From an uncultured Bacteroidales bacterium (GTDB lineage Bacteria; Bacteroidota; Bacteroidia; Bacteroidales; UBA932), in assembly GCA_944325495.1 (NCBI GenBank), contig CALVAD010000008.1:1-62532 (forward strand): a stretch of DNA of 62,532 bases, written 5' to 3'. Made by a program: the position numbers and the translations under genes. The notes beneath the pieces are model-generated. The model was not told the DNA's origin. It searched no databases and worked only from the letters and a program-made list of their open reading frames with translations. Shown here piece after piece: positions 3,147-55,573 of the stretch (positions within the stretch are counted from its first letter, which is position 1; each line of letters opens with the position of its first letter).

Positions 3147-3263
3147 GCCGAGGCGGCGTTCTGCCTCCGGAGAGGTTTCGCTTCGCTTCATCCCGCCGCT
3201 GTCGCGGCACCCACTCACGGCCGTGGGCGGCCAGCCTCTCCGGAGGCAGAACGCCGCCTCGGC
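3147..3263. repeat. Long intergenic palindrome 2 (branched-core type)
   Basis: The arms 3147-3175 and 3235-3263 are perfectly complementary over 29 bases. The 59 bases between them, read on the minus strand, align with the core of palindrome 3 (3403-3458), including GCCGCCC, GTGAG and GAAGCGAAGCG blocks. Within the core two small hairpins can form: CCCAC/GTGGG and GCCGC/GCGGC. It lies 15 bases past the membrane protein stop, in a convergent gap. Confidence 0.85.
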
Positions 3264-3375
3264 AATGAGGAGAATAATTTAATCCGGATCGTTCAAGCAG
3301 ATGACTCTGTCAGCCGTTGAACGGTCCGGATTGACTTGTAGCTTTACCGTCTGATAATCTTCGTCGGACATTCTT

Positions 3376-3485
3376 TGCGACAGTCGTACAGCTTTCAGGG
3401 AGGCTAGCCGCCCGCGGCTGTGAGCGGGCGATGCGAAGCATCGATGGAGCGAAGCGGAACCTCCCTGAAGGCTGTACGACTGTCG
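3376..3485. repeat. Long intergenic palindrome 3 (branched-core type)
   Basis: Arms 3376-3402 and 3459-3485 pair over 27 bases with one G-T wobble. The core (3403-3458) is homologous to the core of palindrome 2 but in the opposite orientation, while the outer arms of the two are unrelated in sequence. Inside the core CCCGC/GCGGG and GATGC/GCATC hairpins replace the CCCAC/GTGGG and GCCGC/GCGGC hairpins of palindrome 2, that is, the bases change but pairing is kept. It ends 10 bases before the DUF3737 stop. Confidence 0.85.
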
Positions 3486-3495
3486 CGAAGGGCCT

Positions 3496-4338
3496 TCACC
3501 TTGTCCTTATCACGCAATCCGCAGGTGCAAGGATGTTCTCGTCGAGAGTGACGGAGCCGATGGAGTCGGCGACGATCAGGCCCGAGGTCGGATTCTTGAT
3601 GTTGGTGATAGCGCCGCGGATGTCGGCACGAAGCGTCGAGTATTCGAACGCACGGTCGCATGCCGGGTCGAAAGTGCAGTTCTCCAGCACAAGGTCACGG
3701 GCGTAGCACAGCGGCTGCTCACCCGAGATATGACAGTTCACGAGCCGCAGGTTCCTGGAGTGCCAGCCCAGGTACTCACCGTCGAGCACGGAGTCATAGA
3801 TGGTAACATCCTCGACCTCCCAGAACGCATCCTTGGTCGAGATTTTCGCATTATGTATCTCCGCGTTCTTCACATACTGGAACACATACTTGCTGTCGCT
3901 CTCCAGCCCGTCGACGATGATATTGCTGCTGAACATGAAAGGATAGGTGCCGTCGTGCAGCTTCAGGTTCTTCGCCCGTATGCCGCTGCAGCGCCAGAAC
4001 ACTTCGTCGGCATCGTTCATCACGACATTCTCTATGTCGATTTCGTGCATCTCGCGGAACATCTTCGGGGCGTCGATTACGGTGTCCCTCATCTTCAGGT
4101 GGTCGGAATACCACAGCGCCGAGCGGCCGCCGACCGCGAAATAGCAGTTCTCGATCGTGAAGCCATGCACATGCCAGAAGGGGTAGTTGCCCTCGAAGCG
4201 GCAGTTCGTCGCCACTATATTGCTGCATTCCTTAATCGCCGATTCGCCTGCGAGGATGGTCACATTGTCGAGATGGAGATCGTGTGAAGCGAAGAGCGGG
4301 CGCTCGCCTCCGAATTCCTTATTTTTGATCAACTGCAT
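3496..4338 (-). CDS. DUF3737 family protein, right-handed beta-helix
   Basis: A 280-residue protein of the DUF3737 family. The sequence is a run of about twelve imperfect rungs of 18-22 residues with the pattern of alternating hydrophobics plus Asn/Cys/Asp turns (for example IVATNCRFEGNYPFWHVHG, FTIENCYFAVGG, LRLVNCHISGEQPLCYARD), as expected of a parallel beta-helix. There is no signal peptide, so it is probably cytoplasmic. Family members are widespread in gut Bacteroidales and Firmicutes but have no established function; the fold resembles polysaccharide-binding or lyase helices without visible catalytic residues. It has its own -7 box upstream, and a palindrome separates it from the pectin enzyme gene. 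Confidence 0.85.
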   Translation of the reverse strand: MQLIKNKEFGGERPLFASHDLHLDNVTILAGESAIKECSNIVATNCRFEGNYPFWHVHGFTIENCYFAVGGRSALWYSDHLKMRDTVIDAPKMFREMHEIDIENVVMNDADEVFWRCSGIRAKNLKLHDGTYPFMFSSNIIVDGLESDSKYVFQYVKNAEIHNAKISTKDAFWEVEDVTIYDSVLDGEYLGWHSRNLRLVNCHISGEQPLCYARDLVLENCTFDPACDRAFEYSTLRADIRGAITNIKNPTSGLIVADSIGSVTLDENILAPADCVIRTR

Positions 4339-4360
4339 GATTCCAGAATTTTTTGCGATG

Positions 4361-4368
4361 CAAAATTA
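4361..4368 (-). promoter_or_regulatory. Promoter -7 box for the DUF3737 gene
   Basis: The minus strand reads TAATTTTG, matching TAnnTTTG, 22 bases before ATG 4338. This predicts a leader of about 18 bases. Confidence 0.5.
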
Positions 4369-4466
4369 CAACGAATTTCAAATATCCTGCAATCAGATTT
4401 ACGGCATGGCCTACCAGTATTACGGAGTCTCCGCCTATCCTGAGCTGTCAGGTATTTGCAGCATGA

Positions 4467-4527
4467 CGGAGGGTCCGCCACCGGGAGGCTCTCCAGAAGA
4501 CCTTTCCTCCAAGCGACGGACCCTCCG
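4467..4527. repeat. Long intergenic palindrome 4
   Basis: Perfect 11-base arms (CGGAGGGTCCG at 4467-4477 and its complement at 4517-4527), continued inwards by an imperfect stem that closes with GGGAGG/CCTCC. The tip begins GGAGGCT like the other members of the family. It lies just downstream of the stop codon of the GH105/SGNH gene and could end that transcript. Confidence 0.65.
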
Positions 4528-4543
4528 CTATGTCCGGGGCCGG

Positions 4544-6571
4544 CTATCTGATATATTCCGCGATTGCGAGCCCGGAGTCCTTCAGGGCCGTGGCGAGAAT
4601 CTCACAGTACATGCGCGCGCCCTTTTCGAGAGTGTGCACGCTGTCGGCGAAATAGTCCGCCTGGGCGGTCTTTCTGCCCAGCTCCTCATATTCGGCCGCC
4701 GCGAGTTCGTTGAAGTCGATGAAGGCCGCGTCTTCCTTCTCGGCGACCAGACGGCACCATGCGTTGTAGCTGTCGTCGTAGCGCGAGATCGTCCTGCCGT
4801 CTTCCCAGCTGTTGAGCGGGGTGGGAGAGAGCACGATGGGGATGCCGCCGCGCATCTCTGTCTGGCGTACCATCATCCGTATGTAGTGCCCGTAGGAATA
4901 GACGTCCTCGGGCGCTCCGTTCTTCTCCATTATCACGGTCTCGGGCTCGTCCGAAATTCCGCTCAGGGTGCCGCGTGCGCGGCCGCTGTTGAGCGGTGCA
5001 CGGTCGTTGTGTCCGAACTGTATGAGCACGAAGTCGCCTTTCTGTATGCGGTCGCGCACTTCCGGCCATCTGCTGTTGAAGAAGGTGCGGCTGCTGAGCC
5101 CGCCGACGGCGTCGTTCTCGACTGTGGCTCCGCTCACATATTCGCCGAAGAAGCTGCCCCAGCCCCACTGGCCGTTGTCACCGGTTCCGCGTCCGTTCTT
5201 GCAGGTCGAGTCGCCGGCAAGGAAAATCATGGGCTTGCCGTCCTCGCGGGGCGTGATGCCGTCGCGAGCCGAGTTTGCGGACGGGCGTGCGGGAGTGTTC
5301 TCATACAGTCTGATGATCTCCGAAGCCGCTAGAATCACAGGACCGTAGCCGTGCGCCGCATACACGCTGACAGGCCGGTTCTCGTAGAAGGTGTTGGTCC
5401 ATCCGAGGCCGGTCCCGACACAGGTGTTCTCCACCTGCCCGAGCTCGTTGACCTGCGTCGCGACGCCTCTCCATCCGGACTTTGCGATGTCCTGGTATGC
5501 AGTGCGGTCTATCCATCCTTCGTTGACCGCGTGGGCGATGCAGTAGACATACATCGCGCTTGCGCTTGTCTCCAGATAGGATTCTGTCTTGTCGAGGAGC
5601 TGATGCCAGAGTCCGTTCGGAGCCTGATAGGGGGCGACGCCTTCTATGAGCTCTTTCAGCAGCGAGAGCAGTTCGTCGCGTCCCTGGACATTCTCGGGGA
5701 GTGCGTCAAGCAGGTCGCACAGCGTGAGCATAGCCCATCCGTTGGCCCGCGCCCAGTGGTATGAAGGGTGGATGTCCATGCTCTCGATCCAGCCGTGGCG
5801 GAAAAGCTTCTTCTCGGGGACCCAGAGATATTTCTTGAACAGCATCACCTGGTTCACGGCTTCGTTGTAGAACTTCCAGGTCAGGTCGCCGCGCTCTTTG
5901 GCGCTCAGCAGGCCGCGGAAGGCGATGGGGGTGATGCCCATGTACATGTCGTCGAGCCACACGGAGTTGGTCACGGGGCGGTGCCGGGCGAGTATGCCGT
6001 CGCCCATGCGGTATTCCTCGTACATCACGAAGGTGAACCAGTTGTCCAGCAGCGCGCGGAAGTCCCCGCTGCGCTCCGGGTCGGCAAGGGTGGCCTTGAT
6101 CATCGCGGCGGTCATCGCCCCGCAGTCGTCGAGCCATTTCGGCTGGGTGAGCGGCTTGAGTCTCATGGGGTATCCCGTGGCGTCGTAATACTCCTTGACC
6201 GGGCGATAGCAGCTGCCTATCAGGTCAAGTCTGTCGTAGACATAGTCCGCATACTTTTCCTCTCCTGTGACTTCGGAGGCCAGGAGAAGCCCCGAATAGG
6301 TGACGCCCCACTCATAGGTGTTGATGCCGAAGTCGCCTTTCCTGAAGCTGCTGTTCTCGTCGATGCGGTCGAGGTTCCTGAGGACCTTGCCGTCGCCGTC
6401 CACGACTTCCGCCGGGGTGCATCCGTCGATGTAGTTGAACACTCGGTCAAGGACTTCCCTGACCTCGACTACGGGGTCCTCCCTCTGCTGACGGGCTGCC
6501 TGCGCATCGGCGGGATGAACGCCGGCGATGAGGGCAAGGGCCGCCGGCAGGATGATTCTGTGGTTTTTCAT
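4544..6571 (-). CDS. Secreted two-domain pectin enzyme: GH105 unsaturated rhamnogalacturonyl hydrolase plus SGNH (CE12-like) acetylesterase
   Basis: A signal peptide (about residues 1-25, ending PADAQA) leads into a GH105 (alpha/alpha)6 domain, about residues 35-425, related to YteR/YesR, which removes the unsaturated sugar left by rhamnogalacturonan lyase. Recognisable parts are the INTYEWGVTYSGLL, WLDDMYMG (candidate catalytic Asp) and HWARANGWAM stretches. After a short linker comes an SGNH hydrolase (about 445-675) of the rhamnogalacturonan acetylesterase type: block I GDST with Ser454, GGLSSR, block III GHND near 519-522, and the Asp-x-x-His pair DSVH near 643-646. Deacetylation and disaccharide cleavage are thus joined on one periplasmic chain. 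No SusC/SusD lies nearby. The gene follows the UPF0210 gene by 19 bases and is probably co-transcribed with it. Confidence 0.92.
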   Translation of the reverse strand: MKNHRIILPAALALIAGVHPADAQAARQQREDPVVEVREVLDRVFNYIDGCTPAEVVDGDGKVLRNLDRIDENSSFRKGDFGINTYEWGVTYSGLLLASEVTGEEKYADYVYDRLDLIGSCYRPVKEYYDATGYPMRLKPLTQPKWLDDCGAMTAAMIKATLADPERSGDFRALLDNWFTFVMYEEYRMGDGILARHRPVTNSVWLDDMYMGITPIAFRGLLSAKERGDLTWKFYNEAVNQVMLFKKYLWVPEKKLFRHGWIESMDIHPSYHWARANGWAMLTLCDLLDALPENVQGRDELLSLLKELIEGVAPYQAPNGLWHQLLDKTESYLETSASAMYVYCIAHAVNEGWIDRTAYQDIAKSGWRGVATQVNELGQVENTCVGTGLGWTNTFYENRPVSVYAAHGYGPVILAASEIIRLYENTPARPSANSARDGITPREDGKPMIFLAGDSTCKNGRGTGDNGQWGWGSFFGEYVSGATVENDAVGGLSSRTFFNSRWPEVRDRIQKGDFVLIQFGHNDRAPLNSGRARGTLSGISDEPETVIMEKNGAPEDVYSYGHYIRMMVRQTEMRGGIPIVLSPTPLNSWEDGRTISRYDDSYNAWCRLVAEKEDAAFIDFNELAAAEYEELGRKTAQADYFADSVHTLEKGARMYCEILATALKDSGLAIAEYIR

Positions 6572-6590
6572 TATACTGGATTGGTTGTGT

Positions 6591-7955
6591 TTAGTTCTTG
6601 AAGCTGTGCACGGGTGCGGGTATGCGGCCCTCGCGGCTGATGAAGGCTTCGCAGCTGAAGCGGTTGACGGGTATCACCGGCGCATAGCCGAGCAGCCCGC
6701 CGAATTCCAGGCGGTCGCCGATCTTCTTCCCCTGAGCGGGGATGATCCTGACGGCCGTGGTCTTCTGGTTTATCATTCCTATGGCCGCCTCGTCGGCTAT
6801 TATCCCGGAAATAGTGGACTCCGGAGTGTCGCCGGGAACCGCTATCATGTCGAGTCCGACGGAGCAGACGCAGGTCATGGCTTCGAGCTTCTCGATGGTC
6901 AGCGCTCCGCATTCGGCGGCGTCGATCATGCCCTGGTCCTCGCTCACGGGGATGAAGGCTCCGCTGAGGCCGCCCACATACGACGACGCCATGATGCCTC
7001 CCTTCTTGACCTGGTCGTTGAGCAGGGCCAGAGCGGCCGTGGTGCCGGGAGCGCCGGCCTGTTCAAGCCCGATTTCCTTGAGGATGTCGGCCACCGAGTC
7101 GCCGACCGCGGGGGTGGGGGCCAGCGAGAGGTCGATTATCCCGAACGGCACCCCGAGCCTCCGGGAGGCCTCCTGGGCTACAAGCTGTCCCACGCGCGTT
7201 ATCTTGAACGCGGTTTTCTTGATGGTTTCGCAGAGCACCCCGAAATCCTCCCCGCGCACTTTCTCCAGCGCCGACTTGACCACTCCCGGGCCGCTGACGC
7301 CCACATTGATGACCGCGTCCGGTTCCGTGACTCCGTGGAAGGCTCCTGCCATGAAGGGATTGTCGTCAGGAGCGTTGCACAGGACCACGAGCTTGGCGCA
7401 GCCTATGGAGTTCCTGTCGGCAGTGAGTTCGGCCGTGCGCTTCACGATATGGCCCATGAGCCTTACGGCGTCCATGTCGAGTCCGGTTCTGGTCGAGCCC
7501 ACGTTCACGCTGCTGCATATCCTCTCCGTGGAGGCGAGCGCTTCCGGGATGGATTCCATGAGCAGGCGGTCGGCCCCCGTCATGCCTTTCGAGACTATTG
7601 CGGAATATCCTCCCATGAAGTTCACTCCGGTCTCCGCGGCCGTTTCGTCGAGGGCGTGCGCGATTTTCGCGAAATCCCCGGCGCTGCTGCAGCAGGATGC
7701 GCCGACGAGGGACACCGGAGTCACGGAAATGCGCTTGTTGACTATAGGCACTCCGAACTCGGCTGCTATTTCGTCCGCGGTGGCGGCCAGCCCCGATGCG
7801 AGGGAGAGGATCTTCGTCCTTATCCTGTCGCAGGTCCTGTCCACGCTTCCTCCCGCGCAGTCCAGAAGATTGATGCCCATGGTGATGGTCCGCACGTCGA
7901 GATTCTCCTTCTCGATCATGTCGTGGGTCTCGAATACTTCGCTGATGTTGATCAT
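6591..7955 (-). CDS. UPF0210 (PFL) family protein
   Basis: A 454-residue member of the UPF0210/PFL family, cytoplasmic, structurally related to the glycyl-radical pyruvate formate-lyase fold but of unknown reaction. Characteristic stretches include [13 protein letters not shown] near the N-terminus and the glycine-rich [16 protein letters not shown], plus the C-terminal [12 protein letters not shown] take ATG 7955 ([12 protein letters not shown]) as the start; an open frame continues upstream only because it overlaps the ACT gene in another frame. The ACT-domain gene ends 5 bases before it, and this pair is conserved in very many bacteria and archaea, implying joint function, perhaps amino-acid or nucleotide sensing. 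The pectin enzyme follows on the same strand. Confidence 0.9.
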
Positions 7956-7960
7956 GGCCG

Positions 7961-8233: not shown

Positions 8234-8258
8234 TTTCGTGGCTGATTTTGTATCGCGT

Positions 8259-8266
8259 CAAAGATA
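8259..8266 (-). promoter_or_regulatory. Promoter -7 box for the ACT-UPF0210 operon
   Basis: The minus strand reads TATCTTTG, a full match to the Bacteroidetes -7 consensus. The predicted leader is about 20 bases. Confidence 0.6.
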
Positions 8267-9647: not shown

Positions 9648-10574
9648 ATGAAAATAGTCTTTCTCGACGCGTCCACGCTTGGGGACATCCCCATGGACGA
9701 AATCAGTTCGCTGGGCGAGTTCCTGGCATATCCCGTAAGTTCCCGCGAAGAAGCCCTGCAGAGGGTGGGTGACTGCGATGTCCTGATAATCAACAAAGTG
9801 AAGGTCGATGACGCGCTCATCGCCGCCGCACCGAAGCTCAAGTTGATATGCGAGGCCGCGACGGGGGTGAACAACATAGATCTTGACGCCGCGAAGCGCA
9901 GGGGCATTCCCGTGCGCAATGTCGCCGGATATTCCACGGAGTCCGTGGTCCAGGCGACTTTCACGCATCTGCTGTCCCTTGTCGGCAATGCGCCGTATTA
10001 TGACGAATATGTGAAGAGCGGCAGGTATTCGGCTGGCGGCATCTTCACGGAAGTCAGCCGGCCGTTCACGGAGCTCTCCGGCCGGACTCTCGGCATCATA
10101 GGCATGGGCAGCATAGGCTCCCGGGTCGCCGCGGTCGCGTCCGCTTTCGGGATGAAGGTCGTGTATTATTCGACCTCGGGTACGGGGCACTGCAAGGAAT
10201 ATCCCAGCCTGCCCCTCGACGGACTTCTGGCGCAGTCGGACGTCGTGAGCATACACGCGCCGCTGAATGAACGCACGGCCGGCCTGATCGGCGCGGCTGA
10301 ACTGAAGATGATGAAACGCAGCGCCGTGCTGCTGAATCTCGGCAGGGGAGGAATAGTCGACGAGGCCGCGCTTGCCGCAGCAGTGGACGAGGGCCGGATA
10401 GCCGGAGCCGCACTGGATGTCTATGTGACCGAACCTCTCCCCGCCGACAGCCCCCTGATGCATCTGAAACATCCCGAACGCTTCCGTTTCTCGCCCCATA
10501 CCGCATGGGCCAGCGCAGAAGCGTTGCGCCGCCTGGTCAGCAAAGTTGCGGAGAACATCCGTCAGGGCTGGTAG
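9648..10574 (+). CDS. D-2-hydroxyacid dehydrogenase (NAD-dependent, glycerate/hydroxypyruvate type)
   Basis: A 308-residue cytoplasmic oxidoreductase that interconverts 2-keto acids and D-2-hydroxy acids. The Rossmann motif GIIGMGSIGSRVA lies near residue 148, the catalytic Arg is in the LNLGRGGIVDEAAL stretch after HAPLNERTAGLI, the Glu is in VYVTEPLP, and the catalytic His is in SPHTAWAS near the C-terminus. The N-terminal substrate domain ends with TGVNNIDLDAAKRRGIPVRNV. Substrate preference (glycerate, lactate, hydroxypyruvate) is not clear. There is no ACT domain, so it is not a full SerA. The promoter places the transcript start on the ATG. A small hairpin (10574-10593) and a long palindrome follow. 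Confidence 0.9.
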   Translation: MKIVFLDASTLGDIPMDEISSLGEFLAYPVSSREEALQRVGDCDVLIINKVKVDDALIAAAPKLKLICEAATGVNNIDLDAAKRRGIPVRNVAGYSTESVVQATFTHLLSLVGNAPYYDEYVKSGRYSAGGIFTEVSRPFTELSGRTLGIIGMGSIGSRVAAVASAFGMKVVYYSTSGTGHCKEYPSLPLDGLLAQSDVVSIHAPLNERTAGLIGAAELKMMKRSAVLLNLGRGGIVDEAALAAAVDEGRIAGAALDVYVTEPLPADSPLMHLKHPERFRFSPHTAWASAEALRRLVSKVAENIRQGW

Positions 10575-10641: not shown

Positions 10642-10717
10642 GGACAGAAAGCGGATTCCCCCGAGGCAGGCTTTTCCCGAATTCATTGCCTGCCTCGGGG
10701 GAATCCGCTTCCTGTCC
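10642..10717. repeat. Long intergenic palindrome 5 (CCCGAAWT-loop type)
   Basis: Thirty-base arms (10642-10671 and 10688-10717) with a single mismatch and a 16-base loop TTTTCCCGAATTCATT. The loop closes on GGC/GCC. It lies between the convergent hydroxyacid dehydrogenase and the Omp85-like gene and ends 7 bases from the latter's stop codon. Confidence 0.85.
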
Positions 10718-10724: not shown

Positions 10725-12110
10725 CTAGAACAGATAACCTGTATTTATGTAGAACGCCCCCGTGCCGTCCTGGTTGTAGAGTGGATGATTCTTCGGGTAG
10801 AAATGGCTTATGGGTGTGCCGTACTCGAACGCCACGATGAAGTTCTCGTTCATAATGAAGCGGAGCCCGGCGCCCACGGTGATGTGCGGCGTGTCATGCT
10901 CCTGGCCCTTGGACATGTATTCCTCATAGGATTCCCTGAATTCCTCTTCGCCCCTGAAACTCATGTCACGTCCGCGGGTGACCATGGTGCCGTCGCTGAA
11001 GGCGCTGAGCCCGAAGGAGATGTTCTGGTTCCAGAGCGTGAAGTTCACGAAACGCCAGCGCAGTTCGGCGGTATAAGTCGCCATGTCGAGGCCGACGACC
11101 CTGTTGCGCATCACGCCCCTCACGGTCCGGTAGCCTCCCATGCCGTCCTTGTCGCAGTTCTCTCCCATCACGGTGATGTACGGGAGGACATAATATGGCG
11201 AGTAATTGCCGAACGCTCCTTCGTAGTTGAGCCTGTAGGCGAAGGTCAGCACGTCGTCGTCGATGATGGGGAAGTACTGGCGCATGGTGAGCGAGTATCT
11301 GTAGAAAGGGTTTTTGGTCCCAAGCCATTTGGGAGCGGCGATGATGTGGCCCTCGGCCCAGATTCCGCGCGTGGGGGCGCCTTCCTTGTCGCGGGTGTCA
11401 TAGACGAGCCCCAGCCTGATGCTGCTCGTGAAGCCTCCGTCGGCCTCGGAATCATCGATGAGACCCCAGTTCCTGTAGTCCTGGAAGAGCGTCGACTGGC
11501 TGTCGGGGTAGATGTTGTAATCGTCCTTGCCCTTGTTGATGCTCGTCCTGTCTATGGGCCCTTCCTTGAACCAGCTGAAATGATATCCGGCCTCCCACTG
11601 CAGATGCTCGGTTATGTCGCCTATGAAATCGGTCTTTCCCAGAATCTGCACGCGGCTCACGCGATAGAAGGGCGTGTATATGTATTTTTCGGGGTCCTGC
11701 CAGTTTTTCTTGTTCTGATTGCCGATTGCCACCCTTTCCTGGTCGAACCACGAAACATAACCGTTGAAGCCGTAGAAGTCCATGGCCTTGTCGATCGATG
11801 CCGTGAGCGCGGAGGACCAGCGTATTCCGGGGATGAGCGTCTTGTTGTCGTACATCACGGTGTACAGCTGCGAACCTTTGGTGAAGAAGGATGCTTCGAG
11901 GTATATTTTCGACCCGTAGTTGGGATAGAGGGTTCCGTCGCCGTAGTTGTAGATGTTCAGGATGGCGCCGTACTGGAAACCTTTGTCGGCGTCATAGGCT
12001 ATCGCGGGCAGCGGCCCGAAGTTGTAGCCTGTCTTGACGATTTCGGAGTCCTGGGCCTTGGCGGCCATGCCGAAAGCCAACGCTCCGAGAAGTAGAATGA
12101 ATTTTTTCAT
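10725..12110 (-). CDS. Omp85-superfamily outer-membrane beta-barrel without POTRA domains
   Basis: A 461-residue protein with a signal peptide (about 1-19, ending MAAKAQ) and then a barrel of alternating aromatic and polar strands to a terminal Phe (TGYLF). The GGYRTVRGVMRNRVVG stretch near residue 325 corresponds to the loop-6 (V/I)RGF-type motif of BamA/TamA barrels, here VRGV. There are no POTRA repeats before the barrel, unlike BamA itself, so it is a barrel-only member perhaps exporting or anchoring lipid or protein. It starts directly after the plsC stop codon, as the last gene of a BASS-PlsC-barrel operon; the pairing with an acyltransferase hints at a membrane-lipid role. Confidence 0.8.
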   Translation of the reverse strand: MKKFILLLGALAFGMAAKAQDSEIVKTGYNFGPLPAIAYDADKGFQYGAILNIYNYGDGTLYPNYGSKIYLEASFFTKGSQLYTVMYDNKTLIPGIRWSSALTASIDKAMDFYGFNGYVSWFDQERVAIGNQNKKNWQDPEKYIYTPFYRVSRVQILGKTDFIGDITEHLQWEAGYHFSWFKEGPIDRTSINKGKDDYNIYPDSQSTLFQDYRNWGLIDDSEADGGFTSSIRLGLVYDTRDKEGAPTRGIWAEGHIIAAPKWLGTKNPFYRYSLTMRQYFPIIDDDVLTFAYRLNYEGAFGNYSPYYVLPYITVMGENCDKDGMGGYRTVRGVMRNRVVGLDMATYTAELRWRFVNFTLWNQNISFGLSAFSDGTMVTRGRDMSFRGEEEFRESYEEYMSKGQEHDTPHITVGAGLRFIMNENFIVAFEYGTPISHFYPKNHPLYNQDGTGAFYINTGYLF

Positions 12111-14023: not shown

Positions 14024-14082
14024 CTATAATTTTTAAATTATCGCCGCCGCGGCCGGACCGACGGTTTGCGCGAACTATGGGA

Positions 14083-14158
14083 GCCGGTTTCCGCAGCTGC
14101 CCCGAGGGAGGCTTTTCCCGAATCTTTCGCCTCGCGAGAGGCAACTGCGGCTGCCGGC
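14083..14158. repeat. Long intergenic palindrome 6 (CCCGAAWT-loop type)
   Basis: Thirty-base imperfect arms (14083-14112 and 14129-14158, about seven mismatches) around the 16-base loop TTTTCCCGAATCTTTC. The loop is nearly identical to that of palindrome 5 although the arms are unrelated. It is placed upstream of the BASS operon promoter, not between convergent genes. Confidence 0.8.
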
Positions 14159-14350
14159 GCACAGCTGTCAGCATCGACCTCCATACACCGGCCGCTTTTG
14201 CCATTGCCGCCGGCCGCAAATGTCAATATACCCCTCCCCGGTACCGGCTTCTGACGCTGCCCCTGCATGAGCTTTAACAAAAAAATTACAGAATTGTAAT
14301 GACCTGATATAGAAAGCCGGAAAAGATTATTAAAAATTTTTCAAAAAAAT

Positions 14351-14381
14351 TTTGCAGATTAAATAAATTGTTCTACCTTTG
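14351..14381 (+). promoter_or_regulatory. Consensus promoter for the candidate small RNA
   Basis: TTTG at 14351-14354, exactly 19 bases, then TACCTTTG at 14374-14381: a perfect TTTG-N19-TAnnTTTG Bacteroidetes promoter inside a strongly AT-rich stretch. No protein gene follows on this strand. Confidence 0.75.
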
Positions 14382-14385
14382 CATT

Positions 14386-14500
14386 CGGGTTGAGTAAGCG
14401 ACCGTTCTGGTCCATCAGCCTATTGGTTATTAGTTTTAGTGTTATTAATTATGTGGTTAGTGTGAGTTGTTGCCGCGAGGTACCAACTCATTTCTTTTTA
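14386..14500 (+). ncRNA. Candidate small non-coding RNA of about 115 nt
   Basis: A free-standing transcription unit: perfect promoter just upstream, and at the end a strong intrinsic terminator (stem TGAGTTG/CAACTCA at 14463-14469 and 14484-14490, inner TGCC/GGTA, a GCGA tetraloop, then TTTCTTTTT). Near the 5' end a two-part hairpin can form: GGTTG/CAGCC outside and GACC-GTTCT-GGTC inside. The middle is U/A-rich. No ribosome site or ATG is present. It lacks the GGAAGGAAGCAGCC core of SRP RNA and I cannot match it to a known family. The only downstream gene on this side is convergent, so it is not a leader. Confidence 0.6.
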
Positions 14501-14549
14501 TATGCCCTTCTGTCTGTTTTTCATAAGCTGCCCGCATACCTGAACCTGT

Positions 14550-25564: not shown

Positions 25565-25639
25565 GATATTGATTATAAACGCGCTATTGTCGTAAGCTTA
25601 TCCGGGGCTGAAAGACGGGTCCAAAAGTGAGATTTAAGT

Positions 25640-25716
25640 GGCTGCTGCCGCAGCTTGCCCCTCGTGAGGCGGGAATTTCGGGGACAGCCTCCCTCGGAGC
25701 AGCTGCGGCAGCAGCC
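25640..25716. repeat. Long intergenic palindrome 7 (CCCGAAWT-loop type)
   Basis: Arms of 31 and 30 bases (25640-25670, 25687-25716), perfect over the outer 16 bases, around a 16-base loop. On the minus strand the loop reads TGTCCCCGAAATTCCC, so this copy is inverted relative to palindromes 5, 6 and 12. It lies in a convergent gap. Confidence 0.8.
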
Positions 25717-25811
25717 ATTGGTCCGGGCAAAACCCAGGCATGACTGCCGCGGCTGGTCTGAGTCAGGCGGTCAGAAGCCGTCAGCATGGTCAAGCGCTTT
25801 CGCGTGGTCTG

Positions 25812-34720: not shown

Positions 34721-34949
34721 ATTGCCGGAAACTGAAATTCATTTGCTACGCCGGCATGTCATATGGTGCGATGGAAGCGGTGCAGCTGCGTCTGATGGAA
34801 CCATTTTCCTTCCATCAGACGCAGGGGCCGATGTTCTGCATTGCTGCATGGCATGGAGGTGAACCAGATGATTTTCATTAAGCTGCTGACGATTTATATA
34901 TGCCGATCATTCAAAGCCGATATTGGGACAAGGTATGCTCTCCCGGGAG
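34721..34949 (+). repeat. 229-base direct repeat element, copy 1
   Basis: About 90 percent identical to 35158-35387 (roughly 95 percent over the first 170 bases). It starts ATTGCCGGAAACTGAAATTC and ends in a half-palindrome CAAGGTATGC-CTC-CGGGAG. Internal pairing: TGCCGG/CCGGCA near the start, and a 13-base perfect hairpin GCGTCTGATGGAA / TTCCATCAGACGC. No protein is conserved between the copies beyond about 40 codons that end at the same stop. Confidence 0.85.
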
Positions 34950-34983: not shown

Positions 34984-35067
34984 GAAACATATTGAGCAGC
35001 AGTCATTTGCGCTTCGCTATTGCTCCCAGGTCGGCCTCCGGAAGGCGACTTGGGAGCAATATGTTTC
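34984..35067. repeat. Long palindrome 8 between the two direct-repeat copies
   Basis: Outer arms GAAACATATTG (34984-34994) and CAATATGTTTC (35057-35067), and a competing inner stem of about 18 base pairs from ATTGCTCCCA (35019) to TGGGAGCAAT (35060) with a CCGGA tip. The two structures share the right arm, so they are alternatives. Confidence 0.65.
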
Positions 35068-35157
35068 CCGAAAACACCTCTCCAGATGCCTGGAAGGCCG
35101 TTTTTGCAAAACTCGCCGCTCACAAGTATTTTGGAAACACGGGTCGACATTGACATC

Positions 35158-35387
35158 ATTGCCGGAAACTGAAATTCATTTGCTACGCCGGCATGTCATA
35201 CGGCCCGATGGAAGCGGTGCAGCTGCGTCTGATGGAAGCATTTTCATTCCATCAGGCGCAGGGGCCGATGTTCTGCACTGCTGCATGGCATGGAGCTGAA
35301 CCAGATGATTTTCATTAAGTCGGCGACGATTTACATGTGCCGATCATTCAAAGCTGGCAGCCGTACAAGGTATGCGCTCACGGGAGG
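35158..35387 (+). repeat. 229-base direct repeat element, copy 2
   Basis: Second copy of the element at 34721, in the same orientation, 437 bases downstream. Its internal hairpin keeps pairing: GCGTCTGATGGAA now faces TTCCATCAGGCGC, an A-to-G change that turns an A-T pair into G-T. Its end merges into the left arm of palindrome 9, whose right arm is lacking in copy 1. Confidence 0.85.
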
Positions 35388-35425
35388 CTTTTATACCGCC
35401 TCCCGTGAGCGCATACCTTGTACGG
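35361..35425. repeat. Long palindrome 9, perfect 28-base arms
   Basis: Arms 35361-35388 and 35398-35425 are perfectly complementary over 28 bases, loop TTTTATACC, closing on GGAGGC/GCCTCC. The closing bases and the T-rich start of the loop match the GGC-TTTT type of the family, with a short loop. Confidence 0.85.
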
Positions 35426-35778
35426 CTCTGGACAGGTTGAATCTGCCTTTGTCCGTCGCGTCTTCCGCCGAGCGTCTGTGCATGCCCACGATGCACTGGC
35501 TCCCGCCGCAGTGGTTCGCTATCTGACTGATTTCGGCGCTCGGCGGCGACTGGCGGGCAAAGAAACATAAAAAAGTGACGGAAGTTTCTTATCGAAGCAT
35601 GGAAATATGACAACCGCTGAGCAACTTTGTCCCGTGCCGTCCGTTCCGCCGCTTCGTCATGTCCGGAAGGTCGTTTCCTCCATTGTGGCCGGTTCCGGAT
35701 TCGCGACGACGGACCTGAATCCGCGATAGCCGTGAACGGTGCTGCCGGCACGAATGTTCAACCAAAAACTGTACGACT

Positions 35779-41112: not shown

Positions 41113-41143
41113 CACCACGCGCGCGTTCCCTCGTGGATAAGGG

Positions 41144-41182
41144 AAACCCCGGAAGTCCAATCGGGCTTCCGGGGTTTCTTCT
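41144..41182. terminator. Terminator between BACON lipoprotein 3 and the redox operon
   Basis: A perfect 12-base stem AAACCCCGGAAG / CTTCCGGGGTTT (41144-41177, 10-base loop). It is followed by CTTCT on the plus strand. Placed between convergent genes, it may serve both, though the minus side lacks a long T run. Confidence 0.8.
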
Positions 41183-50001: not shown

Positions 50002-50006
50002 CAGCG

Positions 50007-50054: not shown

Positions 50055-50086
50055 CCGACGTGTGTTAACTAAAATTGAAACCTGAG

Positions 50087-51223
50087 ATGGCAATCGAGAT
50101 CAAAGAAGTCAGGACCCGCCGCGAACTGCGGACCTTCGTTAACTTTCCCGAAAAACTATATAAGGACAATCCATACTATGTTCCGCCCCTCGTGTTCGAC
50201 CAGATGGACACGCTCGACCAGAAGAAGGGCGCCGCGCAGGAATTCTGCGACTCAAAGCTGTATCTCGCCTACAAGGACGGCAAGCTCGCCGGAAGGGTGG
50301 CGGCCATCGTCAACCGGCTCGCCAATCAGCAGTGGGACCACAAGGAGGTGCGTTTCGGCTGGTACGATTTCATCGACGACCCCGAGGTGGCGAGGGCTCT
50401 GATGGACAAGGTGGAGGAATTCGGCCGCAAGTACGGCATGGAGTCCGTCGTGGGGCCGCTCGGCTTCACGGATTTCGACCCGGAAGGCCTTCTGGTCGAA
50501 GGTTTCGACAGGCTCAGCACGATGGCCCTGATCTACAACCATCCCTATTATGTCAAGTACATAGAGGACATGGGCTTCACCAAGGATGCGGACTGGATTG
50601 AGTTCAAGATCGACATTCCCGAGAAGCTTCCCGAAAGGATAGACAGGATATGCAACCTGATCCAGGAGAGGAACAATGTCCACCTGCGCCAGATAACCAG
50701 GAAGATCGTCAGGGAGGAAGACTACGGCCACAAGATCTTCAAGGCTATCAACGAATGCTACAAGAATCTGTACAACTTCACCGTGCTTCCGGACCACATG
50801 GCCGACAAGTATCTGGATTTTTATCTCAGCATACTCGACCTGCGCTTCATCTCCGTGGTGGAGAACGAGAAGAACGAGCTCGTGGCCTTCGGCATCACCA
50901 TGCCGTCGATAGTCCGCGCCCTGCAGAAATGCCGCGGAAAGCTCTTCCCCTTCGGATGGTGGCATGTGCTCAAGTCGCTTTTCTGGAAGCGTGAGGAAGG
51001 AGTCGAGATGCTGCTGGTCGGGGTCCTGCCCGAATACCAGAACACCGGCATCAATTCCCTGATCCAGGCCGACATGTTCAGGAAATATGCCGAATTCGGA
51101 GTGAAATGGGCCGAGACCAATGCGATTCTCGAGACCAACATCAAGAATCAGGGTCAGTTCAAGGACTATAATCCCGAATGCAAGAAAAGACGTCGCTCAT
51201 ATATCAAAAAGCTTGAATATTAG
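50087..51223 (+). CDS. GNAT-superfamily N-acetyltransferase-like protein
   Basis: A 378-residue cytoplasmic protein common in Bacteroidetes and annotated as an acetyltransferase. The C-terminal half has the GNAT fold: ISVVENEKNELVAFGITMPS and VEMLLVGVLPEYQNTGINSLIQADMFRKYAEFG, where the acetyl-CoA loop (R/Q-x-x-G-x-G/A) is altered to QNTGIN. The N-terminal FVNFPEKLYKDNPYYVPPLVFDQ and VGPLGFTDFDPEGLLVEGFD are hallmarks of this subfamily. Its acceptor is unknown. ATG 50087 is preferred over the upstream TTG at 50075. The rarA gene starts 14 bases after the stop. Confidence 0.8.
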   Translation: MAIEIKEVRTRRELRTFVNFPEKLYKDNPYYVPPLVFDQMDTLDQKKGAAQEFCDSKLYLAYKDGKLAGRVAAIVNRLANQQWDHKEVRFGWYDFIDDPEVARALMDKVEEFGRKYGMESVVGPLGFTDFDPEGLLVEGFDRLSTMALIYNHPYYVKYIEDMGFTKDADWIEFKIDIPEKLPERIDRICNLIQERNNVHLRQITRKIVREEDYGHKIFKAINECYKNLYNFTVLPDHMADKYLDFYLSILDLRFISVVENEKNELVAFGITMPSIVRALQKCRGKLFPFGWWHVLKSLFWKREEGVEMLLVGVLPEYQNTGINSLIQADMFRKYAEFGVKWAETNAILETNIKNQGQFKDYNPECKKRRRSYIKKLEY

Positions 51224-51229
51224 GCGATT

Positions 51230-51264
51230 TAACAAAAATGTCAGAATCTATAACAAAAATGTTA
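51230..51264. promoter_or_regulatory. Paired TAACA-N4-TGTTA sites over the rarA start codon
   Basis: TAACAAAAATGTCA at 51230-51243 and TAACAAAAATGTTA at 51251-51264; the second is a perfect dyad, the first has one mismatch. They are 21 bases apart, and each contains an in-frame ATG of rarA. The same pair with the same spacing stands at 25528-25562. Function is unknown. Confidence 0.4.
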
Positions 51265-52539
51265 CCTCCTCTTCCCGAGCGGATGAGGCCCAGAAGTCTG
51301 TCGGAATATGTGGGGCAGAAGCATCTTGTGGGCGAGGGCTGCATCCTGAGGAACATGATAGATTCCGGCAATCTCTCGTCCTTCATCTTGTGGGGGCCTC
51401 CGGGCGTGGGCAAGACCACGCTCGCCCGCATCATCTCGAACACGCTCGACCGTGAGTTCTACACGCTCTCCGCTGTGAGCTCCGGCGTGAAGGAGGTGAG
51501 GGAGGTCATCGATGCGGCCAGGAAGAACATCTTCTCGCGCGGCGGCTCCCCCATTCTGTTCATCGACGAGATACACCGATTCAACAAGGCCCAGCAGGAC
51601 GCGCTGCTGGGGGCCGTGGAGGCCGGCACCGTGGTGCTGATAGGCGCCACGACCGAGAACCCGTCCTTCGAGGTCATAACTCCCCTGCTTTCCCGCTGCC
51701 AGGTGTTCGTGCTGAAGTCCCTCGAAGCCGCCGACCTCGACCTGCTGCTCCGGCGCGCGCTCAGCGAGGATGCGGTCCTGAAGCAGAGGAACATCGAAAT
51801 ACGCGAGAAGAAGGCTCTTTTCCGCCAGAGCGGGGGCGATGCGCGCAAACTGCTGAACATACTCGAAATCGTCGTCGACGCGAATCTCGGCAGCGATCCC
51901 ATAGTCATCGACAACCGGAGCGTCACCGAGTGCCTGCAGGAGAATGTCGCGATCTATGACAAGGACGGCGAGATGCATTACGACATCATCTCCGCGTTCA
52001 TCAAGAGCGTCCGCGGTTCCGACCCGAACGCGGCGGTGTACTGGATGGCCCGCATGCTTGACGGCGGCGAGGACCCTCTCTTCATTGCGCGCAGGCTGTG
52101 CATACTCGCGGCCGAGGACATAGGGCTCGCCAATCCCAACGCTATGCTGCTCGCCGACGCGACTTTCCGCATCGTGCACTCCATAGGCATGCCCGAGGCG
52201 CGCATCCCGCTCAGCGAATGCGCGATATATCTCGCGAGCTCTCCCAAGAGCAATTCGGCGTATATGGCGATAGACAGCGCTCTGGAGGCGGCCAAAGCCG
52301 ACAGGACGGCCGCAGTGCCGCTGTATCTGCGCAACGCCCCGACCAAACTCATGTCCGAACTCGGCTACGCCGACGGCTATAAGTACGCGCATGACTACCC
52401 CGGGCATTTCACCGACCTGGAATTCCTTCCGGAAGGCATGAAGGGCAGGGTTTTCTATGAGCCGCAGCCGAACCGCCACGAGGACACGCTCAAGTCCTAT
52501 CTGCAGTCGTGCTGGCCGAAATATTACAGCAAGAAATGA
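51238..52539 (+). CDS. rarA: Replication-associated recombination protein A (RarA/MgsA)
   Basis: A 433-residue AAA+ ATPase of the clamp-loader clade that acts at stalled replication forks with SSB. Walker A WGPPGVGKTTLARI (about residue 51), Walker B ILFIDEIHRFNKAQQDALL, sensor 1 LIGATTENPSFEV, and the C-terminal EDIGLANPNAMLLAD and YLASSPKSNSAYMAID tetramer region are all typical. Two in-frame ATGs (51238 and 51259) have the same upstream AACAAAA context; the first gives the usual N-terminus. Its stop overlaps the aldehyde dehydrogenase start by 4 bases (ATGA). Confidence 0.95.
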   Translation: MSESITKMLPPLPERMRPRSLSEYVGQKHLVGEGCILRNMIDSGNLSSFILWGPPGVGKTTLARIISNTLDREFYTLSAVSSGVKEVREVIDAARKNIFSRGGSPILFIDEIHRFNKAQQDALLGAVEAGTVVLIGATTENPSFEVITPLLSRCQVFVLKSLEAADLDLLLRRALSEDAVLKQRNIEIREKKALFRQSGGDARKLLNILEIVVDANLGSDPIVIDNRSVTECLQENVAIYDKDGEMHYDIISAFIKSVRGSDPNAAVYWMARMLDGGEDPLFIARRLCILAAEDIGLANPNAMLLADATFRIVHSIGMPEARIPLSECAIYLASSPKSNSAYMAIDSALEAAKADRTAAVPLYLRNAPTKLMSELGYADGYKYAHDYPGHFTDLEFLPEGMKGRVFYEPQPNRHEDTLKSYLQSCWPKYYSKK

Positions 52540-53897
52540 GCATCGCGGAGACCGTCGCCGCCCAGAAGGCGTATTTCCGCTCCGGAGCCACTTTGCCTGC
52601 GGATTTCCGCCGCGCCGGACTCCGGAAGCTGCTGGATGCGTCGTACCGTTGGGAGAAGCCGCTTTGCGACGCTCTGATGCACGATCTCCACAAGTCTCCG
52701 GAAGAGGCGTACATGACGGAGATAAGCATGGTGCGCGGAGAAATTCGAAACCAGCTCGCACATCTGCGCTCGCGCATGCGCCGCAGGCATGTCCCGACTC
52801 CCCTCGCCCATTTCCCCTGCCGGGGATACGAAGTCTGCGAGCCGCTCGGCACGGTTCTGATCGTTTCGCCCTGGAATTATCCGGTCCAGCTGCTCCTGAG
52901 CCCGCTCGCCGGAGCGATTGCGGCCGGATGTACGGCCGTGCTCAAGACTTCGCCGTCGGTCCCGGAAGTCTCCACGGTACTGCGCCGCATGATCGAGGAA
53001 TGCTTCGCGCCCGAATATGTCGCCGTGGTGGAGGGCCACAGGGATGTTAACGCCGAGCTCTTCGCGCAGCGCTTCGACCTTGTCTTTCTCACCGGCAGTC
53101 CCGCTCTCGGCAGGATAGCGATGAAGGCCGCGGCGGAGCATCTGACGCCAGTCGTGCTGGAGCTGGGCGGCAAGAGTCCGTGCGTGGTCGACCGCGGCGC
53201 CGACCTGAAGACGGCCGCGAGGCGCATAGCCTGGGGAAAGACTCTGAATGCCGGCCAGACCTGCATAGCGCCGGACTATCTGCTGCTGCATGAGGATGTC
53301 AAGGAGGCGTTCATCGAGGCCTTCCGGCAGGCCGTCGCCGAACTTCACGGCTCTGATGCCGCGGCCTCCCCTCATTTTGCGCGCATCGTCAGCGACAAGG
53401 CCTGGCGGCGTCTGGTTTCATATCTGACGCAGGGAGAAATAGTCGCCGGCGGTCATAATGACGCAGGAAGCCGCTATATCGAGCCCACACTGCTCGACGG
53501 CGTGGATCCCGGCTCCCCCGTAATGCAGGAGGAGATTTTCGGTCCCATATTTCCCATCATCACATGGCGGAAGCCGGACGAGGTCGAGGATTTCGTGCGT
53601 TCGCGCGAGAAACCCCTTGCATTCTATTATTTCGGCGACAGAAGGAAAGGGCTCGAACTGGCCGGACGCTGCAGTTCCGGCGGAGCCTGCATCAATGACT
53701 GCATAATGCATATAGTCAACGAGCGGCTGCCTTTCGGCGGAGTCGGCAATTCCGGAACGGGCGCATATCACGGCAGGTACAGTTTCGAAGCATTCTCGCA
53801 CCGTCGCGCCCTCGTCGTCACGCCGACATGGATCGATCTCCCTTTCCGCTACATGCCGTACCGCTTCATCAGACTCATTAGAAGGATTCTGCGCTGA
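52536..53897 (+). CDS. NAD(P)-dependent aldehyde dehydrogenase (class 3-like)
   Basis: A 453-residue oxidoreductase that turns aldehydes into acids. The catalytic Cys is in NAGQTCIAPDYLLL (about residue 239), the general-base Glu in LELGGKSP (about 205), the Asn in SPWNYPVQLLLSPLAGAIAAG, and the Rossmann motif FLTGSPALGRIAM. The later EEIFGPIFPII and NERLPFGGVGNSGTGAYHG are standard. It lacks a signal peptide and ends in a hydrophobic, Arg-rich stretch (FRYMPYRFIRLIRRILR) as in membrane-attached fatty-aldehyde dehydrogenases (YwdH, ALDH3), so fatty aldehydes are a likely substrate. It overlaps rarA by 4 bases. Confidence 0.93.
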   Translation: MSIAETVAAQKAYFRSGATLPADFRRAGLRKLLDASYRWEKPLCDALMHDLHKSPEEAYMTEISMVRGEIRNQLAHLRSRMRRRHVPTPLAHFPCRGYEVCEPLGTVLIVSPWNYPVQLLLSPLAGAIAAGCTAVLKTSPSVPEVSTVLRRMIEECFAPEYVAVVEGHRDVNAELFAQRFDLVFLTGSPALGRIAMKAAAEHLTPVVLELGGKSPCVVDRGADLKTAARRIAWGKTLNAGQTCIAPDYLLLHEDVKEAFIEAFRQAVAELHGSDAAASPHFARIVSDKAWRRLVSYLTQGEIVAGGHNDAGSRYIEPTLLDGVDPGSPVMQEEIFGPIFPIITWRKPDEVEDFVRSREKPLAFYYFGDRRKGLELAGRCSSGGACINDCIMHIVNERLPFGGVGNSGTGAYHGRYSFEAFSHRRALVVTPTWIDLPFRYMPYRFIRLIRRILR

Positions 53898-53931
53898 CAT
53901 TGCCCATGCTCCGTGTTGACTCGCGGCTTTC

Positions 53932-54009
53932 GCCGGCGGGGCGTGGAAGCCGCTCCGGATGCGATTGATTTGGGGTTAGCCGCCATCGCAGCTTCCATGC
54001 CCCGCCGGC
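53932..54009. repeat. Long intergenic palindrome 11
   Basis: Nineteen-base arms (53932-53950 and 53991-54009) with one G-T wobble, closing on GGAAGC/GCTTCC around a 40-base interior containing GATGCGAT and CATCGC, which can form a second stem. It lies between the tandem aldehyde dehydrogenase and MATE genes. Confidence 0.75.
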
Positions 54010-54102
54010 AGCGAAGATAATCGAGCACGGCGCCGCCTATTTTTGCAAATGTCGGAATTTTGACCCTTTTTTGCACGCTCAAAAAGATACATTGTCGGAT
54101 TT

Positions 54103-55461
54103 ATGAACAGAGACGCGATTGATTTCGAGAAGGAAAGTGTATTCACCTTGTTCCGCAAACTTCTGATACCCACGCTGCTCGGCTCTACGGCCCTGTCGGC
54201 TGTGAGTGCCATAGACGGCATATTCGTCGGCCACGGAGTCGGAGCCGACGGGGTCGCCGCCGTCAACATAGTGGCTCCGATATATCAGGTCATGGCCGGA
54301 CTCGGCTTCATGATCGGTACCGGATGCTCGGTCGTCTCGTCAATACATCTGTCGCACAGGAAAGTAAAGGTCGCCAGGATAAATGTGTCCCAGGCCCTGC
54401 TTGCCGCATCCGTGATTTCCGCGCTGCTGATCGGCGCGGCACTGATTTTTCCCGAAGCCACGGCCCGGATGCTCGGAGCCTCCGACACCCTGATGCCCAA
54501 GGTGCTCGACTACCTGAAATGGATCATGCCCGCCTTCCTGTTCGAGATGTGGTCGCTGATAGGGCTGTTCATAATCAGGCTCGACGGCGCTCCGAAATAT
54601 GCGATGTGGTGCAACATGATACCTGCCGTTATGAACGTGGTGCTGGACTGGCTCTTCATTTTCCCTCTCGGAATGGGAGTCAAGGGCGCGGCGATAGCGA
54701 CGGCCATAAGCATCGCGGCCGGAGGGCTCATGGCGCTCGCCTACCTGCTGTTCTTCGCCAGGACCATGCGGCTGATACCCTTGAAAGTCAGCCTTACGAG
54801 CATCAGGCTCGGGTTCAGAAATGTCGGGTACCAGTGCCGGATCGGCTCGTCCTCCCTGCTCGGCGAGCTCATAATGGCGGTGTTCATGTTCGTAGGCAAC
54901 TGGCAGTTCATGAAATATCTCGGCGACACGGGCGTGGGCGCTTTCGGAATCGCCTGCTACTATGCGCCGTTCTTCTTCATGATAGGAAACGCCATAGCGC
55001 AGTCCGCCCAGCCGATAATCAGCTACAACCACGGTGCGGAGAGGCTTTCCAAGGTCGTGGAGGCGCGGTCGCTGCTGCTGCGGACCGCCGTCTGCTTCGG
55101 AATTTTCGTATCCGCGCTTTTCATAGCCATCCCCAAGGCGCTGGTCGGTCTTTTCGTGGATATACAGAGCCCTGCGGGCGTGCTTGCCGCCGACGGTTTC
55201 CCTTTGTTCGGCGTCGGAGCGCTGTTCTACATCGTGAACATAGCCCTGATCGGATATTACCAGAGCATAGAGAAAGTGCGCAAGTCCACCGTATTCATGC
55301 TTCTCCGAGGCTTCATCTTCCTGATTCCCATATTTTTCCTGCTGCCCGCCATGGCGGGGACCCACGGACTGTGGCTCGTGATGCCCGCCACCGAGCTGCT
55401 GACGACCATTGTCATATATCTGGCCTGGCGCATGTCCCGCCGACGCGTTATTGCCGCTTGA
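54103..55461 (+). CDS. MATE-family multidrug/sodium antiporter
   Basis: A 452-residue inner-membrane transporter with twelve membrane segments in two homologous halves, exporting drugs or metabolites in exchange for sodium or protons. The N-terminal ESVFTLFRKLLIPTLLGSTALSAVSAIDGIF region with VDGIFVGHGVG-type strands and AVNIVAPIYQVMAGLGFMIGTG are characteristic, as is the second-half FGIACYYAPFFFMIGNAIAQSAQPIISYNHGA. Substrate is unknown. It is separated from the upstream gene by palindrome 11 and from the convergent mltD-like gene by palindrome 12. Confidence 0.92.
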   Translation: MNRDAIDFEKESVFTLFRKLLIPTLLGSTALSAVSAIDGIFVGHGVGADGVAAVNIVAPIYQVMAGLGFMIGTGCSVVSSIHLSHRKVKVARINVSQALLAASVISALLIGAALIFPEATARMLGASDTLMPKVLDYLKWIMPAFLFEMWSLIGLFIIRLDGAPKYAMWCNMIPAVMNVVLDWLFIFPLGMGVKGAAIATAISIAAGGLMALAYLLFFARTMRLIPLKVSLTSIRLGFRNVGYQCRIGSSSLLGELIMAVFMFVGNWQFMKYLGDTGVGAFGIACYYAPFFFMIGNAIAQSAQPIISYNHGAERLSKVVEARSLLLRTAVCFGIFVSALFIAIPKALVGLFVDIQSPAGVLAADGFPLFGVGALFYIVNIALIGYYQSIEKVRKSTVFMLLRGFIFLIPIFFLLPAMAGTHGLWLVMPATELLTTIVIYLAWRMSRRRVIAA

Positions 55462-55506
55462 CGGAACGACGGTGTCCGCAGAGGGCGCTCTTCAAACCGG
55501 CGGGGC

Positions 55507-55573
55507 GGCCGGAAGAGAGGCTCCGGAAAGGCTGTACCCGAATTTTCGCCTTTCCGGAGCCTCTCTTCCGGCC
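55507..55573. repeat. Long intergenic palindrome 12 (CCCGAAWT-loop type)
   Basis: Perfect 26-base arms (55507-55532 and 55548-55573), closing on AAAGGC/GCCTTT, with the 15-base loop TGTACCCGAATTTTC. It fills the convergent gap between the MATE and mltD-like genes, 12 bases before the latter's stop. Confidence 0.88.

Follow-up and report, generated by a model that had tools for sequence, protein, structure and literature searches.

How can a family of hairpins keep its loop while the stem differs from one copy to the next and still remains complementary? This question is raised by a 62,532-nt stretch of an uncultured Bacteroidales bacterium (positions 1 to 62,532 of contig CALVAD010000008.1, assembly GCA_944325495.1; hereafter, the window), where a first-pass annotation had pointed out palindromes with unrelated stems and a common loop core in about twelve intergenic gaps. 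The source is most likely a metagenome-assembled genome of Candidatus Cryptobacteroides, a genus described as a gut bacterium. Of the named relatives in the contig collection, Ca. Cryptobacteroides merdipullorum ChiHecec2B26-709 is the nearest, with 87% identity for one protein, and we took the genus as Cryptobacteroides on this basis. The palindromes belong to a family with a conserved loop core, free but complementary arms, and a loop that is invertible in place between relatives. We consider it probable that this is an extragenic hairpin family whose arms are maintained by template switching and whose loop core is under selection at the 3′ ends of genes.

In the genome of origin, a draft that is 89% complete, an initial pattern search allowing up to three mismatches identified 26 places, versus 3 for a reversed-pattern control. 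At least one of the 26 (L027; L-numbers designate extracted loci or stretches) looks by eye like a chance coding match. The covariance model suggested by the first-pass annotation (R1, alignment A2) was built from 13 copies chosen for their long stems, and the stem statistics lean accordingly. It gave at least 105 matches at E ≤ 1, corresponding to 93 places after removal of 12 same-site opposite-strand matches, and at least 91 family places at E ≤ 0.01 among the best 150 of 927 candidates. Copies are therefore not confined to the window, nor are their loops variable, and the model search and loop statistics together confirm the genome-wide family that had been proposed. Among 95 listed copies, 59 reach a stem score of at least 16, with stems of 18–32 bp. 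The family is called class 1 hereafter. In its well-stemmed copies, the stem is mostly 25–31 bp long (51/59) and the loop 15–17 nt (53/59). The conserved core reads AGGC-TTTTCCC...GCCT: the inner stem AGGC/GCCT is more than 90% conserved over the 59 copies, and each position of TTTTCCC is 83–97% conserved, except the second (64% T). Conversely, the stem sequence is not conserved between copies (arm identity of 0.37 over positions 8–24 in 54 copies, against 0.29 after shuffling), although one subfamily has related arms. The two arms of any one copy, by contrast, are 0.95 identical, and 22 of the 59 stems are perfect. Copying of the arms from other genomic sites was rejected after comparing the 95 left arms with 364 kb of the genome's own sequence (∼18% of the genome): 31 matched other elements, and the matches outside elements were mostly 14- to 16-mers. 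The exceptions were tandem copies at L095, L096, and L111 and one 18-mer, shared by the L117 arm and window positions 57287–57304 (E 8e-5).

Comparison with merdipullorum indicates how these stems change. Both flanks of 28 own copies could be aligned in merdipullorum stretches, which had been chosen for hairpins. We tabulated 17 orthologous pairs, 14 with both flanks aligned and three anchored on one flank. The remaining copies were set aside: two at L118, which form a merged cluster; four at L079, opposite which merdipullorum has another hairpin; L101 and L098:2545, opposite which it has none; L088 and L107, whose gaps are too long; the diverged window copy at 53933; L113:2531, which is of the second class described below and unmatched; and two units of the L116 array. 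The 15 pairs with a stem display 24 two-arm Watson–Crick changes, 2 other two-sided changes, and 20 one-arm changes, with 273 unchanged; independence of the arms predicts 4.1 two-arm changes. Without L091 and L095, which contain internal indels, 11 two-arm changes are observed versus 1.4 expected (expectation computed by hand); the single two-arm change of L098 also adjoins an indel. Orthologous arms are thus mostly conserved and change together between the two species, and complete renewal of the arms in each lineage is not supported. The renewal of stems by templated synthesis, suggested at first pass, stands in so far as two-arm changes, the lack of a G-T excess, and in-place inversions fit copying between arms, and falls in so far as the arms are not wholly replaced.

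The loop itself keeps its direction in 12 of the 17 pairs (L076 and L116, for which the script gave no stem, being scored as such by eye) and is inverted in five. Three inversions are exact (L074/L276, L077/L262, and L090/L284) and two near-exact (L098/L285 and L118/L265, the latter involving the third L118 copy). In L098/L285, a mismatch at the tenth pair from the loop occupies the same arm in the two species, indicating that only the hairpin tip turned. Five further pairs within the genus were picked by eye for homologous arms, pairs without recognizable common arms, such as L305/L357 and L337/L359, remaining uncounted: three are inverted (L300/L336, L306/L341, and L304/L328) and two are not (L338/L358 and L310/L315). 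L300 and L336 are 98% identical; their loops are inverted with one differing base, and by eye an arm mismatch has not moved. L118/L265, L304/L328, and L130/L271 combine a two-arm change with a loop inversion.

Such inversions might be produced by the assembly, as near-perfect arms could let short-read assemblers join a loop either way. Several hairpins lie at contig ends, the own copy at L074 is perfect in all its 26 pairs, and the L302 contig ends in a 171-bp fold-back. However, arm mismatches near the loop are present in L098/L285 (10th pair), in the own copy at L077 (8th), and in L090/L284 (19th and 21st), so that k-mers above ∼22 tell the arms apart; the element is ∼70 nt long. Moreover, neither the family nor the two-arm changes hinge on which way the loops point. 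An artefact is therefore a very improbable source of the inversions. As to L302, its near-perfect fold-back (positions 1357–1714, at the end of G060:C205) surrounds a class-1 loop and represents either a genuine inverted duplication or an artefact of the library or the assembly.

The copies occupy particular positions relative to genes, which we called with a home-made caller. None of the 95 listed copies lies inside a called gene, 11 being at contig or locus edges. Mapped against gene orientation, as the first-pass annotation had recommended, they favor convergent gaps, where 39 of the 55 usable copies are found, against 6 of the 31 window gaps over 30 nt. A stop codon lies within 20 nt of 23 of 52 copies, when random placement in the same gaps gives 14.4 (p 0.0006). 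Within 30 nt of a stop, GGGAAAA is the sense strand in 15 cases versus 3 in the own genome (p 0.0075), 5 versus 3 in merdipullorum, and 10 versus 5 elsewhere in the genus (p 0.30); within 150 nt, the own genome gives 21 to 9.

This proximity to stop codons, the two-arm changes, and the modest orientation bias would also be compatible with a structured RNA in which selection acting on the transcript preserves the pairing of the stems. Selection of this kind would favor G-U over A-C on one strand, yet the class-1 stems do not tolerate wobble pairs above A-C. Those of the own genome comprise 1531 Watson–Crick pairs, 30 G-T, 27 A-C, and 22 other; those of other genus members comprise 1583 Watson–Crick pairs, 18 G-T, 14 A-C, and 12 other, the 171-bp fold-back included. 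As G-T and A-C mismatches are about equally frequent, pairing in RNA fails to account for the upkeep of the stems, and we rejected RNA-level covariation as the cause of the paired stems. Nor would selection on a transcript invert loops, although they flip. The window contains no Rfam match at gathering scores. We therefore regard the RNA explanation as improbable. Together with the loop inversions, the mismatch symmetry places stem upkeep at the DNA level.

A second class of hairpins has a 56- to 72-nt loop closed by GAGG/CCTC. Its named copies are window 3147–3263, L100, L103, L113, L124, L130, L131, L271, L282, and L287. A regular expression found six in own loci and five in merdipullorum stretches but had no match in the rest of the genus loci searched; the window copy and L131 escaped it and were displayed separately. 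Class 2 obeys the same free-stem rule as class 1. Nine of the 11 copies have arms of 24–31 bp, and all 11 together comprise 252 Watson–Crick pairs, one A-C, and one G-T. L100 and L103 share arms, and the remaining long arms differ. In L130/L271, the 56-nt loop is identical yet reversed, the flanks are colinear, and by eye 7 of 30 arm positions have changed on both sides; the L089/L282 pair keeps its loop direction, so that one of two class-2 pairs is inverted. The class-2 loop also contains small hairpins whose inner stem looks free as well by eye, with the tip CGCTNCGCT. The free-stem rule may thus be nested within class-2 loops.

Tandem arrays add to this picture. In five of them (L076, L079, L096 with its duplicate L095, L111, and L116), the units have by eye a common left arm and, for the most part, a common core, but a complete palindrome is present in the last unit alone. 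The L116 array is also present in merdipullorum. L095 and L096 carry the same hairpin and array on two contigs (C1:167239 and C9:43067), that is, a duplicated segment. By eye, hairpins also differ between the relatives: at L118/L265, one hairpin in merdipullorum corresponds to three in the own genome, joined at CGGCAG; at L079 and L122, the relative's gap holds a different hairpin; at L098:2545 and L101, it holds none.

These observations bear on another explanation, in which insertion of a mobile loop unit is accompanied by the copying of ∼27 bp of its flank into an inverted repeat, flips and corrections occurring later. It would account for the uniform length of class-1 stems (25–31 bp in 51/59), for four class-2 copies (L130, L271, L272, and L287) having identical or near-identical 56-nt loops between different arms, and for the arrays L076, L079, L096, L111, and L116, where the left arm is shared and the matching right arm exists only in the last unit; in L095/L096, the right arm by eye fits the previous unit better. 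However, we came upon no unambiguous empty site with a single arm. At L119/L261, the sole candidate, the relative carries an extra hairpin, and loss of the DNA between TCTCCG repeats that lie within the arms is the simpler explanation of the own sequence. A matching merdipullorum hairpin is present at the site for 15 of the 28 flank-aligned own copies, namely the 14 tabulated ones and the window copy at 53933, in stretches chosen for hairpins. The arms shared by class-2 L100 and L103 do not fit insertion either, and the identical loops of L130 and L271 stand beside flanks that are 83% identical, which points to conservation or conversion and not to recent spread. Insertion of a mobile loop is thus possible but unlikely. 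We are no less doubtful of a bolder version, in which the loops would be autonomous units that spread between loci, fold at an AGGC/GCCT or GAGG/CCTC tip recognized by a putative host or element factor, and copy ∼27 bp of flank as stem. If this were true, target DNA would become stem, and at least two loop classes in one genome would share the rule.

Our preferred explanation of the changes between relatives is template switching. Both signatures of a repeat maintained in this way are observed: in-place loop inversion (5 of 17 orthologous pairs, 3 of 5 chosen by eye, and 1 of 2 in class 2) and two-arm change (24 versus 20 one-arm changes; 11 versus 1.4 expected without the two pairs with indels). 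As the published outcomes of template switching match the arm homogenization and inversion seen here, we take it as the likely maintenance mechanism of the stems. The replisome would switch template inside the palindrome; copying of one arm from the other would restore pairing with a new sequence, and a switch between strands would copy the loop backwards and flip it. The loop core needs a separate upkeep, because it is kept across species while the inner stem and arms change. This upkeep is most likely selection through a putative factor reading the tip at gene ends, a proposal to which we give about an even chance. Such a candidate factor might recognize the hairpin tip at the 3′ end of a gene either as a transcription boundary or for protection of the mRNA 3′ end.

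Several points weigh against this combined interpretation. Template switching is deduced from sequence outcomes. Selection acting on a DNA cruciform might equally produce two-arm changes that bypass G-T intermediates, though not loop inversion. The arm statistics favor good stems, through model R1 and through the score cut. No factor reading TTTTCCC was found in a search limited to Y1_Tnp. The GGGAAAA-sense bias is modest and uneven across genomes, and, of the 54 hairpins oriented in other members of the genus, 8 fall inside open reading frames of a crude gene caller.

The family bears on an old puzzle, the origin and upkeep of long perfect stems; template switching has been proposed as an answer, but natural material on which to test it is scarce. 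With ∼90 hairpins in one genome and at least one flip at 98% identity, strain sequences could serve to measure how often template switching occurs, on which strand, and within what limits. In addition, a family defined by its loop and not by its stem is of a kind that repeated-stem searches could miss.

The family was seen in a single genus. In merdipullorum (G073; also G214, with the same contigs), 55 matches at E ≤ 0.1 correspond to ∼45 places after both-strand removal. For surveys of the genus and the order, a broader model (R2, alignment A5) was used and the best 12 candidates per genome were scored, so that counts are lower bounds. At E ≤ 0.001, at least 54 of 400 genus genomes match, including the own genome and merdipullorum (G214). 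A direct scan of the 28 best R2 loci found stem scores of at least 15 in 24 and no long stem in four (L309, L312, L322, and L323). Distant members keep TTTTCCC or TTTCCC and vary in their inner stem (GGAAGC, GGGGCC). In an order-wide sample of 393 genomes from 206 genera, with the same best 12 candidates scored, only the own genome matches at E ≤ 1e-4. Likewise, 1.29 Mb of contigs (L155–L233, about one-third from outside the genus) contain 11 long hairpins, none with the family loop. Three of these lie on one Neisseria contig and have GCCGTCTG arms, which we take to be part of the DNA uptake sequence. We found no publication on this hairpin family in the open-licence PMC literature, as judged by titles and the first lines of abstracts.

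In the window, hairpins with loops of 5–24 nt number 9, 5, and 3 at scores of at least 12, 15, and 18, against means of 0.12, 0, and 0 in 25 dinucleotide shuffles. The covariance model retains seven members at E ≤ 0.01, starting at 1148 (−), 10642 (+), 14083 (+), 25641 (−), 35359 (+), 53933 (−), and 55503 (+), and one degenerate, weak member at 4460–4534 (+; E 0.041). The dozen or so gaps first grouped together are a mixture. The member at 10642–10717 (+; E 5.7e-16) has 29 of 30 positions paired and the loop TTTTCCCGAATTCATT (10672–10687); it lies between the convergent genes 9648–10574 (+) and 10725–12068 (−) and has an orthologue with two-arm changes in merdipullorum. At 55507–55573 (+; model match 55503–55577, E 1.1e-9), all 26 positions are paired around the loop TGTACCCGAATTTTC, between convergent genes at 54103–55461 and 55586–57217. 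The hairpin at 35359–35427 (+; E 1.4e-8) is paired over 30/30 positions and has a shortened 9-nt loop, TTTTATACC. Those at 14083–14158 (+) and 25641–25715 (−; outer arms reaching 25639–25717, E 2.5e-8) form the subfamily with related arms, of the GCCGCAGC..GCCCCGAGGGAGGC type, and have imperfect stems; the idea that arms are unrelated in every copy holds for most copies and fails for these two. Window positions 14079–14232 are 82% identical to C3:121614–121770. The member at 1148–1215 (−), found with the covariance model, has a 7-nt TTTTCCC loop and imperfect outer arms. That at 53933–54008 (−) is diverged, as is the hairpin at the matching merdipullorum site (L275), where by eye the loop direction is the same; it is outside the pair counts. 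The class-2 hairpin (3147–3263, +) has perfect 29-bp arms (3147–3175 and 3235–3263) and a 59-nt loop. The four loops described at first pass (10672–10687, 14113–14128, 55533–55547, and, inverted, 25671–25686) have the coordinates and sequence then given. Their proposed core, T-K-T-N-CCCGAA, is common and is best conserved in TTTTCCC, the trailing GAA being absent from some copies.

Other hairpins and repeats are also present in the window. By eye, the hairpin at 41143–41178 resembles an ordinary terminator hairpin, and those starting at 34786 and 35223 sit in two copies of a local duplication. This direct duplication (∼34731–34900 and ∼35154–35330) carries the hairpins 34786–34824 and 35223–35261. 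A further interspersed repeat, whose ends by eye are TTGGGAGCAATA / CGCTCCCAAG, is found at window 35018–35061, L285 ∼1130–1424, and L269 ∼1845–2273, and occupies gaps that differ between the own genome and merdipullorum. The ∼180-bp intergenic region 14321–14503 has no Rfam match. It shows ∼74–95% identity in many of 61 genus genomes, among the matches listed, while the adjacent coding DNA is only ∼64–75% identical across them. It is possibly a conserved leader or promoter region.

Intrinsic terminators are the known background against which a hairpin following a stop codon is to be compared. Like them, many copies of the family stand soon after a stop codon. Unlike them, family stems are mostly 25–31 bp long, the loop is conserved, and 99 of 109 hairpins have no T-rich tail; only ten have at least five T in 8 nt on at least one side. 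As the T-tract is mostly missing, we rejected intrinsic termination on sequence grounds, and the distinction from ordinary terminators drawn in the first-pass annotation is upheld.

The same annotation had considered a repetitive extragenic palindrome (REP)-like family and a possible RAYT (Y1 transposase) gene. According to excerpts of PMC3733652, REPs are 20–40 bp long and end in GTAG or CGTC, those with GTAG being linked to RAYTs, and they lie mostly between unidirectional and convergent genes. The hairpins described here are likewise high-copy extragenic palindromes that prefer convergent ends, and Y1_Tnp proteins of ∼300 amino acids exist in the genus. Several are encoded per genome (G007, G033, G035, G048, G059, G060, and others), whether hairpins are present or not. 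However, the stems are free, the loop is conserved, and the 12 nt past the stem contain neither a conserved base (18–34% for each base, both ends of 109 hairpins pooled) nor a GTAG or CGTC tag. No Y1_Tnp match was found in the own genome or in merdipullorum G073, both drafts. Elsewhere in the genus, Y1_Tnp is present in 13 of 16 genomes with hairpins and in 12 of 16 without an R2 match, and five Y1_Tnp loci that we inspected contain no family-type hairpin. With no tag and no association with a Y1 transposase, we did not file the family as REP/RAYT, an assignment that has very little chance of being correct.

The closest parallels come from template-switch, or quasipalindrome, mutation. As far as the excerpts of these papers go, template switching homogenizes the arms of inverted repeats and inverts spacers in scattered yeast genes (PMC8604942), and a compensatory change combined with a loop inversion would be its strongest support, though it was extremely rare in rRNA data (PMC8794818). 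Arm homogenization, two-arm changes, and inversion of the loop or spacer are common to those cases and to ours. Unlike them, the present set comprises ∼90 sites of one family in one bacterial lineage, with a conserved loop core and 5 of 17 loops inverted. Small inversions in plastid hairpins, described in part of PMC6824564 at eleven single, mostly intergenic sites, one of them with a 9-bp stem, show a similar in-place flip-flop of stem-bounded loops; here, the family is dispersed, shares a loop core, and has longer stems. Extragenic palindromes are well known, and those of Cryptobacteroides are apparently upheld by a known mutational process acting on an unusual scale.

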